Shown in pieces: positions 3,654 through 29,352 of a stretch of 64,000 bases of DNA. How positions within the stretch are numbered: the first letter of the stretch is position 1; each line of letters begins with the position of its first letter. The notes under the pieces were generated by a model that was given only the letters and a program-made list of their open reading frames with translations, had not been told where the DNA came from and made no database searches. The stretch is from an uncultured Halobacteriovorax sp. GTDB lineage: Bacteria > Bdellovibrionota > Bacteriovoracia > Bacteriovoracales > Bacteriovoracaceae. The stretch covers positions 124,001-188,000 of the forward strand of contig CAJXVS010000004.1 of the NCBI GenBank assembly GCA_913061265.1, in the 5' to 3' direction. Position numbers and translations under genes: made by a program.

Positions 3654-6359
3654 TTAAAGGGTTCTTTCTTTTATTTTAAGGAGAGATAATTCTGATCTCG
3701 CCATTTCTTTTACATAATCAGATACTGATTTATCATCCAAGATAGAACCAAGTATCTTTTTTCCTTCTTCAACTTTCTTATTTTCTAAAAGAGAGATCGC
3801 TAGTAAGTAGCTCAATCTTCCCTTGTAAGTAGACTTCTTAAACTCTTTCATAAACCTTTTGATTCTCGCTTCTAAGATTAACGATGATTTAGGAGTTCTT
3901 TTTCCAGCGATTAGTTCGATATTCAAATAAGCGATTCTCTCTCTTACTTCGAACATGTAACGGTTATTAGGATTATAGTATTCAGTATCATTTAAAACCG
4001 CTTCAGATACTTTCTTAAATTTTTCAATCTTCCCAGTCTGATAAAGAGAATCTGTATAGGCTCTCATCATCTCTGCTACTTCATAAGGGTCAAAGATAGA
4101 CTTCCCTACTTCACGAGTTAAGAAAGTCTCAATATGAATGGGAGCTTCAACATAGTCTTTTTGATAAAAGGCGATAATCCCATTGTAGTAATTAACTTTG
4201 TTATAACCCTTCATTAATTTAGAGAACTGATTAAGGTTCTTTTTAGCTAGAGCCCAGTTCTTTAAGTTGATGTTCTTAATAAGCTCCATCTCTTTAAGAA
4301 GAGCAACACCCCAAACTTTGATTTCACGGTCATACCAGATCGGAAAAGTCTTAACCGGAGTTCTGCTTAGCTTTTGATATTTCTTGAAATGTGAGTCGAA
4401 AGCTTCGTAAAGACCCATCTTGATATATGACTTTGCCACAATAAAGTTTAAGTAAGGATCTGCTGCAACCTTATTGATGTATCTAGTCTTATAGATTTCC
4501 CAAATTCTAACGAGGTTTGAGTAATCAGATACTTTAAAGTAGCTATCGATAAGCCCGTAAACAATCTCAGCACCATCAGCTTCGAAGACTCTCTTCTCAC
4601 TAGGTCTTAAGCTTGTTACCGGAATAGCATTTAAGTAACTAAGCGCCTTATTGTAGTTCTTATCAACAATAAAAGTTCTAAGTCTTACTAACCAAAGAAG
4701 CTTCTTAAGTTCTTTATCTATCTTACCTTTCTCTAAATCTTCAAGTTCCATGAAGATTCTAGTTTCAATATCAGATTCATTAGTCTTTCTTTTTCTAACT
4801 GAAGTTAAACCAACATATCTTAATCTTGCTTCATAACTAATCTTGAAGTCTTGAGAACGATCAATGGCATTCTTATAAAGCTCTTTAACCTTTGACTCTG
4901 ATTTTCCTAAGATGTCATAAGAAAGAGCAATTCTTAACCTAGCATCTGAACTTTTTGGGTGATAAGAATACTTAGAGATAAAGGCATCAAATAGTTTGAT
5001 CGCTTTAGGATACTTAGCTTCTCTAAAGTAAGCCTCTGCTGCATTGAACTGGATAACAGGATCTACAGTTCCCGTTAAACCTGGTTCGATGATCTCATAC
5101 TCTTTAAGAACTTCTTGAATCTTTCCTAACTTAAAAAGAGAGTAGATCTTGTAGGCTGCCATTGTCTGAGCAGGAAGTAACTTACGAATAGTCTTTTCTT
5201 TTAAGATCTCACGAATCTTCTCAATTTGATTAAGATTAGAGAGGTTATAAAGGATGGCCTCAGCTGCTTTATTACTCTCTTCGTAGTCAAAGTTTTGCTT
5301 AGACTCTACATAAAGCCTTTTAGATAACTCAAGAGCGCTAATATGATCTTTGGCATCAAGGTTATATTGAAGAAGGTACTTATAGATTCCTTTTTTAAGA
5401 TCATAGTTCTTTGTTCTTGCTGCAATTACGCTGAACATAGAAACGGCCATCTTTACTGGCTGCATATTATCTTTTCCAAAGTTTGTTCTAAGGATGGCGT
5501 TGGCTTTTAGGTACTCATTAAAGTCAACATTAGCCTCTTCACCATATTTTTCTTGAAAGAGCTTGATGGACTTATACATCAATCCCCATTTTTTCTTTCT
5601 ATAAAGATTAAGGTTTAACTGAAGGTGAGCTTCTTTTTCACCTTTCTCGAAGTTTCTATTCTTAATGGGATAGAAATACTCTGGCGTTTTACTCTTTAAT
5701 GTTACATAAGGCTTAATAGTCGGCTTAAGCGCTTCATAATCCCAAATAAAAGCAGCTCCGTATCTAAAGTCTCTATAAGGAGTAAGCTTCTTCTTGGCTT
5801 TCTTTGCAATCCTACTCTTAGATCTCTTTTTAGTTTTTGGCTTCTTAGTAAAACTAATCCCTTTAGTCTTTGATCCCACTGGAGCTATTACAGTACTTGC
5901 TTTCTTTTTCTCTTTATCTATATCACTGATCTTCTTTTGAACTGCAGCAGTAGACTCGCTAACAGCATCTGCATCTCTCCAGAAGTCGACAACATATTTC
6001 TTTTCTCTATCTCTATAGAAGTTAAAGAGTTCGATATTTGATGAAGCTAATTTAACTTCAATGCTTTCGATATTATTGTTTTTTGCCGATGGCTCATTAT
6101 AGACAATCTTCTTGAAGTACTTTGATACTGGGCTTAGAGAGAGAAGATCATTCTTAAGTGATTTTAAAGTTTCGGTATTTAATGACTTGATAAAAACAGA
6201 GTCGCCTTTCTTTTCAATAACGACCATATCTCTTTGTACGAAAACGTTCCAGCGAAGATGAGTCTTAGTTAAACGTTGTTCAACTAACTCAGCAAAACTT
6301 GCAGGGGCGGTAAAAAGAACCACGAGCAAAGTCAAAAATTTGAAAACTCTTTTCTTCAT
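3654..6359 (-). CDS. Large secreted tetratricopeptide-repeat protein of the flagellar operon
   Basis: The 901-residue protein begins with a clear signal peptide (KRVFKFLTLLVVLFTAPASF then AE). A lysine-rich stretch near residues 160-195 precedes a long alpha-helical part with repeated TPR-like units, for example IQFNAAEAYFREAKYPKAIK followed by LFDAFISKYSYHPKSSDARL. TPR arrays bind other proteins, so a periplasmic scaffold is likely. It precedes the AAA regulator and flgB by about 40 bases and probably shares their transcript, so it may support basal-body assembly. I recognise no named family and cannot assign a biochemical role. Confidence 0.8.
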   Translation of the reverse strand: MKKRVFKFLTLLVVLFTAPASFAELVEQRLTKTHLRWNVFVQRDMVVIEKKGDSVFIKSLNTETLKSLKNDLLSLSPVSKYFKKIVYNEPSAKNNNIESIEVKLASSNIELFNFYRDREKKYVVDFWRDADAVSESTAAVQKKISDIDKEKKKASTVIAPVGSKTKGISFTKKPKTKKRSKSRIAKKAKKKLTPYRDFRYGAAFIWDYEALKPTIKPYVTLKSKTPEYFYPIKNRNFEKGEKEAHLQLNLNLYRKKKWGLMYKSIKLFQEKYGEEANVDFNEYLKANAILRTNFGKDNMQPVKMAVSMFSVIAARTKNYDLKKGIYKYLLQYNLDAKDHISALELSKRLYVESKQNFDYEESNKAAEAILYNLSNLNQIEKIREILKEKTIRKLLPAQTMAAYKIYSLFKLGKIQEVLKEYEIIEPGLTGTVDPVIQFNAAEAYFREAKYPKAIKLFDAFISKYSYHPKSSDARLRIALSYDILGKSESKVKELYKNAIDRSQDFKISYEARLRYVGLTSVRKRKTNESDIETRIFMELEDLEKGKIDKELKKLLWLVRLRTFIVDKNYNKALSYLNAIPVTSLRPSEKRVFEADGAEIVYGLIDSYFKVSDYSNLVRIWEIYKTRYINKVAADPYLNFIVAKSYIKMGLYEAFDSHFKKYQKLSRTPVKTFPIWYDREIKVWGVALLKEMELIKNINLKNWALAKKNLNQFSKLMKGYNKVNYYNGIIAFYQKDYVEAPIHIETFLTREVGKSIFDPYEVAEMMRAYTDSLYQTGKIEKFKKVSEAVLNDTEYYNPNNRYMFEVRERIAYLNIELIAGKRTPKSSLILEARIKRFMKEFKKSTYKGRLSYLLAISLLENKKVEEGKKILGSILDDKSVSDYVKEMARSELSLLKIKERTL

Positions 6360-6617: not shown

Positions 6618-8171
6618 TTAGTGAGTTGTGTAGAGTAAACCTTTTTTCTTCATCTTTTCGATGAGAGTGGTCCTATTCATTGTGAGAAGTTTCGAGGCCT
6701 GATTCTTGTTTCCACTGGTCATCTCTAGAGCTTGAGCAATAAGAGAATCTTCAATATCTGAAAGGGTCTTCTTTAGATCAATTCCCTCGTTAGATAACTG
6801 GATAACACTGTCGTATTTCTGCACATAGGTAGGGTTATTTTGAAGGATCTTAATAGGCAGATCATTAGGCTTAATGATCGAGCCACCTCTTAGGATAACT
6901 AACCTTTCAATGAGGTTTTCAAGCTCACGAACGTTTCCTGGCCAGTCATAGCCCATTAACATCTCAAGGCATTCATCATCAAACTCAATAGAGTTTCTGC
7001 CATCAGCACTTACAAATCGCTGCAAGAAGTAACTAATAAGGAGAGGTATATCCTCTCTTCTTTCACAAAGAGAAGGTATCTTGATGGGAATAACATTCAA
7101 CCTATAAAAGAGGTCTTCACGCATATCACCGTCTTTAACAGCTTTTTCGAGATCCCTGTGAGTTGCAGTAATGATCCTTACATTAACAGGTAGTGTTTTA
7201 CTCCCGCCAACAGGTTCAATCTCTCTATTTTGAAGAACTCTTAGAAGCTTAACTTGAAGAAGAAGAGGCATATCCCCAATCTCATCAAGGAAGATAGAGC
7301 CGTCGTTAGCCAGCTCAAAACGCCCTTTCCTATCACTAATAGCACCAGTGAAGGCACCCTTTAGGTGTCCAAAAAGCTCACTCTCTAGTAGCTCTGAAGG
7401 GATGGCCCCACAGTTAACAGAGATCATATCTTTTGATGAACGAGGAGATAGATTATGGAGGGCCCTAGAGACTAATTCCTTACCTGTTCCCGAAGGACCA
7501 TTAATAAGAACTGTAGAATCAGATAAAGCCACTTTTTGAATTCTTTCAAAGACCTGCTTCATCTGTGGACTTCTACCAATCATGCCACAGAACATATCTT
7601 CTTCTTTTGGTGGTTCAATCTTGAATTTCTTAAAGATAGGATTGTTCTTTCTAGCATCGTCGTTCTTAACAATATTCTTCATATGGATGTCTTCATATCC
7701 ATATCTAGTTAAGGCCTTGAGAACGAGGTCAGCTAATACATCCATTTCAAATGGTTTAGTCAGATAATGAAAAACGCCTTTCTTAGTAGCGTTAATGGCC
7801 GTTTCTATTGAGGCAAACCCGGTCATAACGATAGAGACAAAGGTATGACCTTTCTCTTTAAGAAGGTCTACTAAGAGAAGGCCATCGGCGCTTCCCTCGT
7901 CAAAAGAGATATCACTAACTAAGCAAAAAGGTTTTTGATTTTCAGCACCTTCAAGATCAAGCTTTAGATCTAAGGCGGTTATACATTCAGAAGGACTAGC
8001 GTAGTAATGAACAACAAGACCAAGTTTCTTTTGCAAATAAGTCCTAAGGGCCTTTGCAAAAACCTTATCATCTTCTACTAAGTAGATATCAGGAGGTGAA
8101 TCAACAACTGGTTTCTTAGTCGTTGGTTTATCTTGATCAAAAGCAGTATGCAGAAAGTGAAAGTCGTTCAT
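6618..8171 (-). CDS. Sigma-54-dependent response regulator (NtrC family)
   Basis: The protein has an N-terminal receiver domain (EDD acid pocket, phosphoacceptor Asp in CLVSDISF, VMTGF and YLTKPF motifs), a sigma-54 AAA+ domain and a C-terminal Fis-type helix-turn-helix (NKNQASKLLTMNRTTLIEKM). Walker A is GPSGTGKE, the sigma-54 contact loop GAFTGA is intact, and Walker B is IFLDEIGD. Start 8171 (517 residues) is chosen because TAGGAGCAAC precedes it; an upstream in-frame ATG lacks a ribosome site and would add 18 unrelated residues. No partner kinase is adjacent. Its place upstream of the flagellar operon suggests a FlrC/FlgR-like role in flagellar gene activation, but the target is inferred. 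Confidence 0.92.
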   Translation of the reverse strand: MNDFHFLHTAFDQDKPTTKKPVVDSPPDIYLVEDDKVFAKALRTYLQKKLGLVVHYYASPSECITALDLKLDLEGAENQKPFCLVSDISFDEGSADGLLLVDLLKEKGHTFVSIVMTGFASIETAINATKKGVFHYLTKPFEMDVLADLVLKALTRYGYEDIHMKNIVKNDDARKNNPIFKKFKIEPPKEEDMFCGMIGRSPQMKQVFERIQKVALSDSTVLINGPSGTGKELVSRALHNLSPRSSKDMISVNCGAIPSELLESELFGHLKGAFTGAISDRKGRFELANDGSIFLDEIGDMPLLLQVKLLRVLQNREIEPVGGSKTLPVNVRIITATHRDLEKAVKDGDMREDLFYRLNVIPIKIPSLCERREDIPLLISYFLQRFVSADGRNSIEFDDECLEMLMGYDWPGNVRELENLIERLVILRGGSIIKPNDLPIKILQNNPTYVQKYDSVIQLSNEGIDLKKTLSDIEDSLIAQALEMTSGNKNQASKLLTMNRTTLIEKMKKKGLLYTTH

Positions 8172-26117: not shown

Positions 26118-27341
26118 ATGCAAAACTTACCTAAAAACTTAATCTTTATATCCTTGGTCCTGCTGGCCGGGTCTATCTTTACATCTATTTCAATAGCCGG
26201 CGTCTCGCATATCTTTCTGGCCCTTGGGACGATTGTTTATGCTTACCAAAATCCAAGTGAATACTTAATCGAACTTAAAATAAAAAAAGCAACCAGGCTC
26301 TCGCTCTTGCTTTTTATCATCGCCATCGTCATATCGGTCCTCTCTAACTGGACTGAGATCGAACATCCTTTAAAAAACATCTTTAAGATTAAATACTTTT
26401 TGATTCCTCTGTTAAGCCTTCCTGCCATCAAATCTTTTTTCACAAAGGAAGCTTCGAAGAAGCAATCACTCTTTCTGATCAGGCTCTTTTTGATAGCCAC
26501 AACTGTGGCCACAGTCTCAGGAATCATCGGTCTTTATACTGGGTTTAATCCCTTGAAGTTTAAGAATGCCTGTCATGAAACAAGGGCCTGTGGTCTTTAC
26601 GGCATGTACATGACTTATGGTTACGGCATGGCGTTTTTTACAATTCTTGCCTCGGGTCTAATTATTTACCGCGATCAATTGAAAGGATGGTTTTCCTTAA
26701 GGTTTTTATTACCTGTGGTTATAATTAACTTTGTAGGCCTCATCTTGTCTTACGCAAGAGGCGGAATGCTAGGTTTTATCCTAGGCCTTCCTTTTTTCTT
26801 TTTTAAGAAGTACCCAAAGAAGTTCTTAACAATCTTTATTGGAATCAACGCCCTCTTTGCAGTTCTTGTTATTTCTACCCCTAGCCTCAAAGAAACCTTT
26901 TTAAGTAAGAGCCGGTCAGTATCAAATATTCAACGAATTGCCTTTTACCATACATCAATTAAAGCTTTTCAAGAGAAGCCAATTCTTGGTTGGGGTTATA
27001 AGAATTACGAGCCTAATGTAACGAGATTAAAGGTTAAGTATAATATTCCCTATCCAAAGTTTGGAGCAGATGCCCACAATATCTTCTTAGAAGTTTTGGC
27101 ATCCATGGGTCTTTTAGGCATCTCCGCCTTTTTATTCTTTCTTATAAGCTGGGCCCGAGAAGCCTACTTAAATGAAGGCCTTATTCATAAGATAGGCTTT
27201 CCTTTTTTAGTAACACTGGTGGTCTCCGGGCAAGTTCAAAACACTTTTGGTGATGGTGAGAACCTCTTCTTCATCATGCTTATTTGGATTTTAATGGAAG
27301 TCTTACCAAAACCTACTCAAAAGGTTCAGACAGATGCTTGA
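26118..27341 (+). CDS. O-antigen ligase/polymerase family membrane protein
   Basis: The 407-residue protein has about ten hydrophobic segments and the Wzy_C/WaaL-type region: ILSYARGGMLGFILGLPFFF, then FQEKPILGWGYKNYE and ADAHNIFLEVLASMGLLGIS. The periplasmic loop Arg and His in such text are typical of enzymes that join polysaccharide to lipid A-core or polymerise repeats. The family cannot be split further by eye. It overlaps the next glycosyltransferase gene by 8 bases. Confidence 0.85.
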   Translation: MQNLPKNLIFISLVLLAGSIFTSISIAGVSHIFLALGTIVYAYQNPSEYLIELKIKKATRLSLLLFIIAIVISVLSNWTEIEHPLKNIFKIKYFLIPLLSLPAIKSFFTKEASKKQSLFLIRLFLIATTVATVSGIIGLYTGFNPLKFKNACHETRACGLYGMYMTYGYGMAFFTILASGLIIYRDQLKGWFSLRFLLPVVIINFVGLILSYARGGMLGFILGLPFFFFKKYPKKFLTIFIGINALFAVLVISTPSLKETFLSKSRSVSNIQRIAFYHTSIKAFQEKPILGWGYKNYEPNVTRLKVKYNIPYPKFGADAHNIFLEVLASMGLLGISAFLFFLISWAREAYLNEGLIHKIGFPFLVTLVVSGQVQNTFGDGENLFFIMLIWILMEVLPKPTQKVQTDA

Positions 27342-28215
27342 TGTATCAGGATTCACTTTTATTAAAAATGGATTCACCTTAGGCTATCCAGTCAAAGAGA
27401 GCATCCTTAGTATTGAACCACTTTGTGATGAGGTTATCATCAACGTAGGCTTTGAAGATGAAGCTTGCACCAAAGATGATGGCACCTATGAGTTCTTAAA
27501 AGATCATTTTACTCATAAGAAATTTAAGTTCTTAAAAAGTTACTGGGATCCTAAGCTCACAAGCCAAGGGTTGATCTTAAGCCAGCAAACAAATATTGCC
27601 TTAGATGCTTGCTCCGGAAAAGTCTGTCAGTATATTCAAGGTGATGAAGCCGTTCATGAAAATGACTTCCACCATATTCATGACGGCCATCTCGATATGT
27701 TAAGAGACCCAAAGATTGAAGGCCTCGTCTATAGGTATATTCATTTTTACGGAAATGTAGATATCGTTAAACACACGAGAAATATCTATCGAAGAGAAGT
27801 CCGCGCCATAAAGAATAATATTGGAGCAAAAAGTCATCTTGATGCACAAGGTTTTAAAGTGAACGGGACTCGAAAATTAAATTGTAAACAAATAGAGGCC
27901 TCCATCTATCATTACGGTTGGGCCAGACAAGAACAACTGATGGCGAAGAAGACAGAAGCCTTTGAAAAGCTCTATCACGGGGCGGACCACGAAGTTAAAG
28001 AATATAAGTACGATAGGATTTGGGGGCTCAAGAGATTCGATCAAACCCACCCTATGATCATGGATCAATGGATTCAAGACAATAAGAATGATATTGATTT
28101 TTGGTCACTACCTATGAGGTTTGAGTGGAAAAACATTGGACTGGCCATTTCTGACTTAGTCGAAAGTGCGTCAGGATATAGAATGGGTGAATATAAGAAT
28201 TACAAATTAATTTAA
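27334..28215 (+). CDS. Family 2-like glycosyltransferase
   Basis: A 293-residue soluble protein. The N-terminus reads VSGFTFIKNGFTLGYPVKES, then LCDEVIINVG, followed by CQYIQGDEAVHEND, which matches the nucleotide-sugar-binding and D-x-D-like (GDE) segments of GT-A family 2 enzymes. No membrane segment is seen. It overlaps the O-antigen ligase gene upstream and ends 19 bases before the bufferin-like gene. Donor and acceptor are unknown; a role in surface polysaccharide is likely. Confidence 0.75.
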   Translation: MLDVSGFTFIKNGFTLGYPVKESILSIEPLCDEVIINVGFEDEACTKDDGTYEFLKDHFTHKKFKFLKSYWDPKLTSQGLILSQQTNIALDACSGKVCQYIQGDEAVHENDFHHIHDGHLDMLRDPKIEGLVYRYIHFYGNVDIVKHTRNIYRREVRAIKNNIGAKSHLDAQGFKVNGTRKLNCKQIEASIYHYGWARQEQLMAKKTEAFEKLYHGADHEVKEYKYDRIWGLKRFDQTHPMIMDQWIQDNKNDIDFWSLPMRFEWKNIGLAISDLVESASGYRMGEYKNYKLI

Positions 28216-28234
28216 TAACTAATGAGGAGAACAG

Positions 28235-28555
28235 ATGAAAAAGAAAAACTTATTATTAAGTGCTGCTATTACAGGCCTAGTACTTGGGGCCAACGTTCAA
28301 ACAGCTACTGCTTCAGGAAGTGGAGATAAAGAAAAGTGTAAAGGTGTTGCTGCTAAAGGCGCTAACTCTTGTGGAGCAAATGGTCATGGTTGTGGCGGTT
28401 TTGCGACAAAAGACTTTGATGCCAATGAATGGGTTTATGTAAAAAAAGGAACTTGTGCAAAGGTCAAAGAAGCATTGAAAGATAGTACTGTTAAAGAGTT
28501 TATCAAGAACACGACAGAAAATGCTCGTAAGTACAAAGCAAACTTTAAAGGCTAA
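28235..28555 (+). CDS. Bufferin-like (DUF2282-type) secreted cysteine peptide
   Basis: A 106-residue protein with a signal peptide (NLLLSAAITGLVLGANVQTA) and four cysteines, Cys35, Cys46, Cys53 and Cys74, in the order EKCKGVAAKGANSC, GHGCGGFATKD, WVYVKKGTCAKV. This matches the DUF2282/BufA plan (EKCxG, NxC, HxC, PKGTC-like). Known bufferins are copper-binding RiPPs whose central cysteines are modified by a DUF692 (MNIO) enzyme with a partner protein; neither gene is adjacent here. GAGGAGAACAG precedes the ATG. Beyond residue 78 is a lysine-rich helix not typical of the family. It overlaps the convergent nitrilase gene by 4 bases. Confidence 0.75.
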   Translation: MKKKNLLLSAAITGLVLGANVQTATASGSGDKEKCKGVAAKGANSCGANGHGCGGFATKDFDANEWVYVKKGTCAKVKEALKDSTVKEFIKNTTENARKYKANFKG

Positions 28556-29352
28556 TTTCGTCCCATAATGACAGACTGTTCGACCTTTTCAATTTCGGAA
28601 AGGTCGATGGTTGCACATATAACCTTTTCCCCATCTTCAGCATTAGCAAGAACCTTACCCCACGGATCAATAACCATTGAGTGCCCATAAGTAGAAATGA
28701 TTTCGTTATTTCTTCCCCACTGAGCAGAAGCTATCACATAGCATTGATTCTCAATGGCACGGGCCCTAAGAAGGACTTCCCAATGAGCCTTCCCTGTAGG
28801 TACTGTAAAAGCAGAGGAAAAGGTCAGTATTTGAGCCCCCTCTTTTTTATAGGCGGCTGCCATTTCTGCAAACCTAAGATCAAAACAAACTCCAAGGCCA
28901 ACCTTGATACCATCTGCTTCAAGCATCTTAGGCTCGCTTCCAGGAATATAGATATCCCCTTCATCGATCTTCTTATGTTCACCCTTTGAATTCTTAATAT
29001 CACAGGAAAATAAATGAATCTTGTCGTAGTGACCTAGATCTTTCCCCGCAGGATCAAAGTTATAAGTTCTATTAATAGATCCTTTTTTATAGGAAGTCGC
29101 AGCTGTCCCACCTATGAGATAGATCTCATGCTTCTTTGCCAATGAGCGGATATTTTCATAGTGCTCATTATCTCGGTGAACTTGAAAAGGTGTAGGCTCT
29201 GATCCATTACTCATTGAGTAAAAACACTCTGGTAAAAAAGCAATCTCCGCTTTCTGAGCTTTCGCTTCTTTTAAGAAGATATTTAACTTCTCTAAGTTCT
29301 CAGAAAAATCTAAGGCTGAAGTCATTTGAATAACGGCTACTTTCTTTTTCAT
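28552..29352 (-). CDS. Carbon-nitrogen hydrolase (nitrilase superfamily)
   Basis: The 266-residue cytoplasmic protein has the Glu-Lys-Cys triad: Glu in FLPECFYSM, Lys in HYDKIHLFS and Cys in GLGVCFDLRFAEM. Overall it looks like the Nit1/omega-amidase branch, which repairs deaminated glutathione or hydrolyses alpha-ketoglutaramate; the substrate cannot be told by eye. The start overlaps the ugd stop codon (ATGA). Confidence 0.88.
   Translation of the reverse strand: MKKKVAVIQMTSALDFSENLEKLNIFLKEAKAQKAEIAFLPECFYSMSNGSEPTPFQVHRDNEHYENIRSLAKKHEIYLIGGTAATSYKKGSINRTYNFDPAGKDLGHYDKIHLFSCDIKNSKGEHKKIDEGDIYIPGSEPKMLEADGIKVGLGVCFDLRFAEMAAAYKKEGAQILTFSSAFTVPTGKAHWEVLLRARAIENQCYVIASAQWGRNNEIISTYGHSMVIDPWGKVLANAEDGEKVICATIDLSEIEKVEQSVIMGRN

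Follow-up and report, generated by a model that had tools for sequence, protein, structure and literature searches.

A stand-alone Buf1 bufferin precursor of Halobacteriovorax with a Buf2-type leader is a candidate for modification in trans

The buf1 locus

The stretch of DNA analysed here (the window) covers 64,000 nucleotides of the genome under study, C4:124001-188000 of G000, which belongs to an uncultured member of Halobacteriovorax, a genus of marine predators of bacteria. Positions 28235-28555 on its forward strand hold a gene of 106 amino acids, buf1, that encodes a bufferin precursor of the Buf1 (DUF2282) type, as supported by Pfam, by its position in congeners, and by dN far below dS. 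A ribosome-binding-site-like GAGGAG (28224-28229, forward strand) lies just 5' of the ATG. All parts of the precursor are likewise read from the forward strand. Residues 1-26 (28235-28312) form a Sec signal peptide and presumed leader, recognised with a simple rule and visual inspection from a positively charged start, a hydrophobic core, and A-T-A before S27, after which we placed the cleavage site by eye. Within it, positions 28244-28288 encode a 15-residue leader motif, KNLLLSAAITGLVLG, that leader scores indicate is common to Buf2 precursors. The mature four-cysteine Buf1 core (residues 27-74, 28313-28456), delimited by Pfam and alignment, is followed by a lysine-rich C-terminal tail (residues 75-106, 28457-28552).

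The first-pass annotation had described a signal peptide with Cys35, Cys46, Cys53, and Cys74 in a DUF2282 arrangement, and all of these are present at those positions. It had staked the assignment on a DUF2282 profile match and on conservation of the cysteines, and both held: PF10048 matched residues 32-78 (E = 1e-14, 54.6 bits against a cut-off of 22.4), and the four cysteines, the only ones in the protein, were invariant in an alignment of 21 homologues. With four cysteines, the protein lies outside the Buf2 type, which has six (or twelve) conserved ones. By published cysteine roles (PMC12452194), Cys46 and Cys53 are the counterparts of the modified central pair and Cys35 and Cys74 those of the disulfide pair. 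An NCBIfam search returned a chance match only, a PDB fold search gave no match, and a sequence search for solved relatives of the precursor found none. Judged from its sequence, the product of 28235-28555 is a true exported Buf1 precursor, and it is an orphan.

The lysine-rich extension was also borne out: it comprises 32 residues (K+R = 9, D+E = 4), and tails of the same kind occur in the relatives G007, G053, and G052, while the alignment shows none in Buf1 proteins encoded in operons. AlphaFold2 with 21 homologues gave a mean pLDDT of 78 and a pTM of 0.58, with values of approximately 81-96 by ten-residue block over residues 31-106, residues 1-25 unstructured, and predicted helices at 73-81 and 84-103. 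Our guess is that the tail is a basic helix holding the peptide at the envelope.

Upstream of buf1 on the same strand are an O-antigen ligase (Wzy_C) gene (26118-27341) and a gene for 293 amino acids without a Pfam match (27334-28215), the latter ending 19 bp 5' of buf1. Downstream, a carbon-nitrogen hydrolase gene on the reverse strand (28552-29352) converges on buf1 with a 4-bp overlap of ends, and a UDP-glucose dehydrogenase gene lies beyond it. The ligase and hydrolase were assigned by Pfam and, like the 293-residue gene, are conserved neighbours in the genus; the ligase lies outside the bufferin system. Pfam assigned none of the neighbours to the bufferin pathway, and a PF05114 search detected no DUF692 (MNIO) gene within the 64-kb window. 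This agrees with the earlier claim that buf1 lacks a nearby MNIO enzyme, as does the whole genome, where PF05114 matched only at C10:52844-53629 and C4:289610-289981. The polysaccharide-type setting described earlier also stands, given the Pfam assignments of the O-antigen ligase and UDP-glucose dehydrogenase.

In the Halobacteriovorax congeners G007 and G053, gene order is the same on both sides of buf1. There, approximately 70 bp separate the upstream gene from buf1, compared with only 19 bp in the window, and this spacer contains ATGACAAT and TAATAT, which look promoter-like by eye. Because of this spacer, we read the association with polysaccharide genes as a conserved position and not as evidence of shared function: the link is positional only.

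Enzymes and precursors elsewhere in the genome

The only full-length MNIO gene of the whole genome lies at C10:52844-53629 (PF05114, E = 2e-95), and the only DUF2063 protein (PF09836, E = 2e-15) directly follows it. Thus, the genome does encode an MNIO-DUF2063 pair, with both genes on contig C10 rather than in a cluster with buf1. The pair is preceded by an 86-residue cysteine-rich precursor with a lipobox, which is Buf2-type by NxCKGxGxC, CKGxGW, and its number of cysteines, an assignment based on likeness to published descriptions and not on a profile. The DUF692 search proposed in the first-pass annotation therefore leads to one full enzyme with its partner at a distant Buf2-type locus. A second orphan Buf1 is encoded on contig C6. 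When we searched the genome with a Buf2-precursor profile, it matched in exactly three places: the Buf2 precursor and both orphan Buf1 genes. Hence, G000 has three bufferin precursors and one enzyme pair.

Next to the orphan on contig C6, on its 3' side, come a gene for an ECF-type sigma factor (Sigma70_r4_2, E = 1e-8) and one whose position would suit an anti-sigma factor. This locus (L060 9055-10375) looks like a Buf1 operon that has retained its regulator, with the MNIO gene absent.

The other PF05114 match, at C4:289610-289981 (L004 1162-1935), was rejected as a bufferin enzyme. It covers only profile positions 119-241 (54.6 bits), has no DUF2063 gene beside it, sits in a nucleotide-sugar gene setting, and also weakly matches a xylose-isomerase-like barrel. 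The protein is a stand-alone one of 257 residues flanked by nucleotidyltransferase-like and short-chain dehydrogenase-like genes, and G025 and G063 have hits of comparable size and score.

Three Halobacteriovorax genomes (L061, L062, and L063) have a conserved TGTAACA ... GTAACATA, noted by eye, 5' of their Buf2 operon, where it may be a promoter or regulator site. By eye, no promoter common to the Buf2 operon and the orphan buf1 genes was seen, and TGTAACA ... GTAACATA is absent 5' of the orphans.

Across the phylum, DUF2282 was present in 21 of 369 genomes, and in 16 of these 21 an MNIO gene lies directly 3' of the DUF2282 gene. Orphan Buf1 genes occur in five of the 21: G000 (with two), G007, G053, G052, and G045. 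All five have a Buf2-type MNIO elsewhere, so that an MNIO is present in each of the 21 genomes. In a tree of MNIO proteins (n = 35), the enzymes linked to Buf1, Buf2, and EGKC precursors formed three separate groups, with that of G000 in the Buf2 group (100/98). The orphans of G000 (that of the window), G007, G053, and G052 constitute a single tail-bearing lineage, and scanning contigs with the tail-bearing proteins returned three loci, again those of G053, G007, and G052. Since four of the six orphans belong to one lineage, we count three independent cases.

Leader similarity to the Buf2 precursor

The signal peptide is reported to act as the leader in bufferins (PMC12452194), and PMC13419390, citing Junger et al. 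2026, describes the Sec signal peptide as the leader for the enzyme complex in both bufferins and oxazolin. We built a leader model of 15 positions on Buf2 signal peptides of other genera and applied it to 172 signal-peptide-like ORFs from 500 kb of G000 (400 kb of stretches, the window, and two 18-kb loci). The genome's Buf2 precursor scored 24.1, the Buf1 of the window 24.0 (rank 2 of 172), and the second orphan 20.4. The runner-up after these three bufferin precursors scored 12.9, and the 172 ORFs had a mean of -3.8 (s.d. 5.8).

Among 22 Buf1 proteins, leaders of orphans scored 24.1, 27.8, 27.8, 25.8, 20.7, and 9.9, compared with -7.7 to 19.4 for operonic ones. Orphans exceeded operonic genes with p = 0.0009 over genes and 0.017 over the three lineages, and with plain alignment scores they were ahead in the signal peptide (p = 0.001) but showed no difference in the mature part (p = 0.69). 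These p-values assume independent genes, an assumption that related genes violate. The contrast is cleanest for the second orphan. In the mature part it is identical at 51 of 58 positions (88%) to an operonic Buf1 of another family (G241) and at 47 of 58 (81%) to that of G075, but its signal peptide scores 20.7 and theirs only 2.1 and -0.7, respectively. The low score of 9.9 belongs to the orphan of G045, and the Buf2 profile misses the orphans of G052 and G045.

We asked what this likeness says about the enzyme used. It could be uninformative, reflecting merely the common descent of Buf1 and Buf2 or a style of signal peptide found throughout the genome. A partial motif is present in several signal peptides of operonic Buf1 proteins from the same family, and Buf1 and Buf2 are homologous in their mature domains; because some operonic leaders score 14.8-19.4, part of the likeness may indeed be ancestral. 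Three observations speak against it: of the 172 signal-peptide-like ORFs, none but the three bufferin precursors scores conspicuously high; the second orphan differs from its close operonic relatives chiefly in the leader; and orphans surpass operonic genes in the likeness of the leader, whereas that of the mature part is no greater. We consider this explanation rather unlikely.

Probable modification in trans

The similarity between Buf1 and Buf2 extends beyond the leader. Without signal peptides, mature Buf1 and Buf2 aligned with an hhalign E-value of 1.6e-6, which none of 100 controls with shuffled non-cysteine columns reached. Leader included, the window protein aligns at 42% over 59 residues with the Buf2 precursor of its own genome. 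The central SCGANGHGC of the window protein aligns with DCGGKTHAC of Buf2, with CGxxxHxC common to both, so a central motif like that of Buf1 is probably nothing new to the Buf2-type enzyme. On the other hand, MNIO subgroups generally pair with particular precursor families (PMC12452194), and FonB, an EGKCG-type enzyme, did not process NACKG and other motifs with a charged residue after the cysteine (PMC13097082). Given this specificity, a Buf2-type enzyme may reject the Buf1 core.

On balance, we lean towards modification of the window Buf1 in trans by the Buf2-type MNIO-DUF2063 complex. We infer the following for the binding, modification, metal, and physiological role of the peptide. Buf1 would be made with a Sec signal peptide that doubles as the leader. 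The genome's sole MNIO-DUF2063 complex, encoded on another contig beside the Buf2 precursor, would bind this leader because its K-x-L-L-x-x-A-A-x-x-G-L pattern equals that of the Buf2 leader. The complex would then oxidise the central Cys46 and Cys53 to 5-thiooxazoles, with a loss of 4 Da each. After Sec export, a disulfide would form between Cys35 and Cys74, and the peptide would serve in the periplasm as a chelator of copper or similar metals present in excess. For the mature peptide S27-G106, the calculated mass is 8447.17 Da in reduced form and 8437.10 Da with two thiooxazoles and one disulfide; the thiooxazoles would absorb near 305 nm. Because the orphan signal peptide resembles that of the precursor adjoining the MNIO gene, one enzyme complex probably serves both precursors.

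Alternatively, the peptide may be exported unmodified and act through its cysteines, its helical lysine-rich tail, or both, for example as a thiol metal binder or an envelope-binding protein. No enzyme lies near buf1, and the tail, which operonic Buf1 proteins lack, has been conserved in G007, G053, and G052 and is predicted with high confidence to be helical; moreover, orphans may be unmodified according to PMC12452194. However, the protein retains both the Buf2-like leader and the central cysteines, in the sequence context seen in modified Buf1 proteins, and every DUF2282-bearing genome of the phylum has an MNIO. We therefore judge an unmodified peptide unlikely. The first-pass annotation had left the choice between enzymes acting in trans and an unmodified variant; the single distant MNIO-DUF2063 pair and the match between the orphan leader and that locus's precursor tip it towards the former. 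Our confidences in the rival readings overlap, because the ancestral explanation of the leader fits a modified or an unmodified outcome.

Extending modification in trans beyond one genome, the orphan Buf1s of Halobacteriovorax and its relatives would have kept or acquired Buf2-matching leaders, such that one Buf2-type complex serves two precursor families from unlinked loci. We give this broader proposal even chances. If true, leader matching would predict enzyme-substrate pairs for orphan bufferins.

Selection on buf1 and copies in relatives

We compared buf1 among three species (G000, G007, and G053). The core had a dN of 0.010-0.061 and a dS of 1.0-1.7, the signal peptide a dN of 0.05-0.12 and a dS of approximately 1, and the tail a dN of 0.11-0.28 with dS ranging from 0.6 to saturated. 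From dN relative to dS, purifying selection appears to act on each of the three parts, and most weakly on the tail. The ORF in the window has no frameshift or internal stop, and buf1 is functional by these sequence criteria. That it is a decaying relic of a lost Buf1 operon is very improbable: relatives in other genera carry Buf1 adjoining MNIO and the related gene of G052 is present in several truncated copies, but purifying selection on the core within the genus, the same location in three genomes, and the intact reading frame all argue against decay.

The copies in G052 lie on a 7-kb contig (L056, G052:C112), which has five copies of the 3' end of its orphan buf1 (51-234, 1176-1359, 2125-2308, 4296-4479, and 6629-6812), only one of which is a full gene. 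The others are 68-83% identical to the intact one, and the copies are interspersed with ORF6N, Fic/Doc, and NrfHA-type cytochrome genes; no more copies of this 3' end were found elsewhere in the G052 genome. A congener of G052, G006, has one decayed copy with a Fic gene on one side and an ORF6N-like gene on the other. An identical 23-mer lies a few bases past the stop of two copies on L056 (238-260 and 4483-4505). It resembles the T arm of a tRNA or tmRNA (TTTGTGGTGGGTTCGATTCCCAC), and one 23-mer is matched at both places without mismatch; ARAGORN detected no complete tRNA or tmRNA gene there. The 23-mers may have been left behind by integration at a tRNA-like site.

Comparison with known systems

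Stand-alone Buf1 genes and their possible modification in trans have already been published as a class, in which orphan precursors are numerous and their modification is called an open question (PMC12452194). Among the best 12 of 161 literature matches, there was no description of bufferins in Bdellovibrionota predators. Our analysis adds two points: the single enzyme pair available is of the Buf2-linked kind, and the leaders of the orphans match that of the pair's own precursor, a match across families that is the new part. With three precursors, one enzyme pair, and a leader signature, G000 makes the question of orphan modification testable.

Like the Buf1 bufferins (DUF2282; BufA of Caulobacter vibrioides), the window protein has a Sec signal peptide, the four-cysteine DUF2282 arrangement, and conserved surroundings of the central pair; unlike them, it lacks adjacent MNIO, DUF2063, and DoxX genes and has a 32-residue lysine-rich helical tail and a Buf2-type leader. 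It shares with the stand-alone Buf1 genes of Antoine et al. 2025 (PMC12452194) a location away from the MNIO in an MNIO-bearing genome, with the difference that here the sole enzyme pair belongs to the Buf2-linked type and is the one indicated by the leader match. Buf2 bufferins, with six or twelve cysteines, resemble it in the leader motif, the homologous mature domain, CGxxxHxC, and W-x7-C, whereas the Buf2 precursor of G000 has a lipobox and extra CKG cysteines and the window protein has four cysteines and no lipobox.
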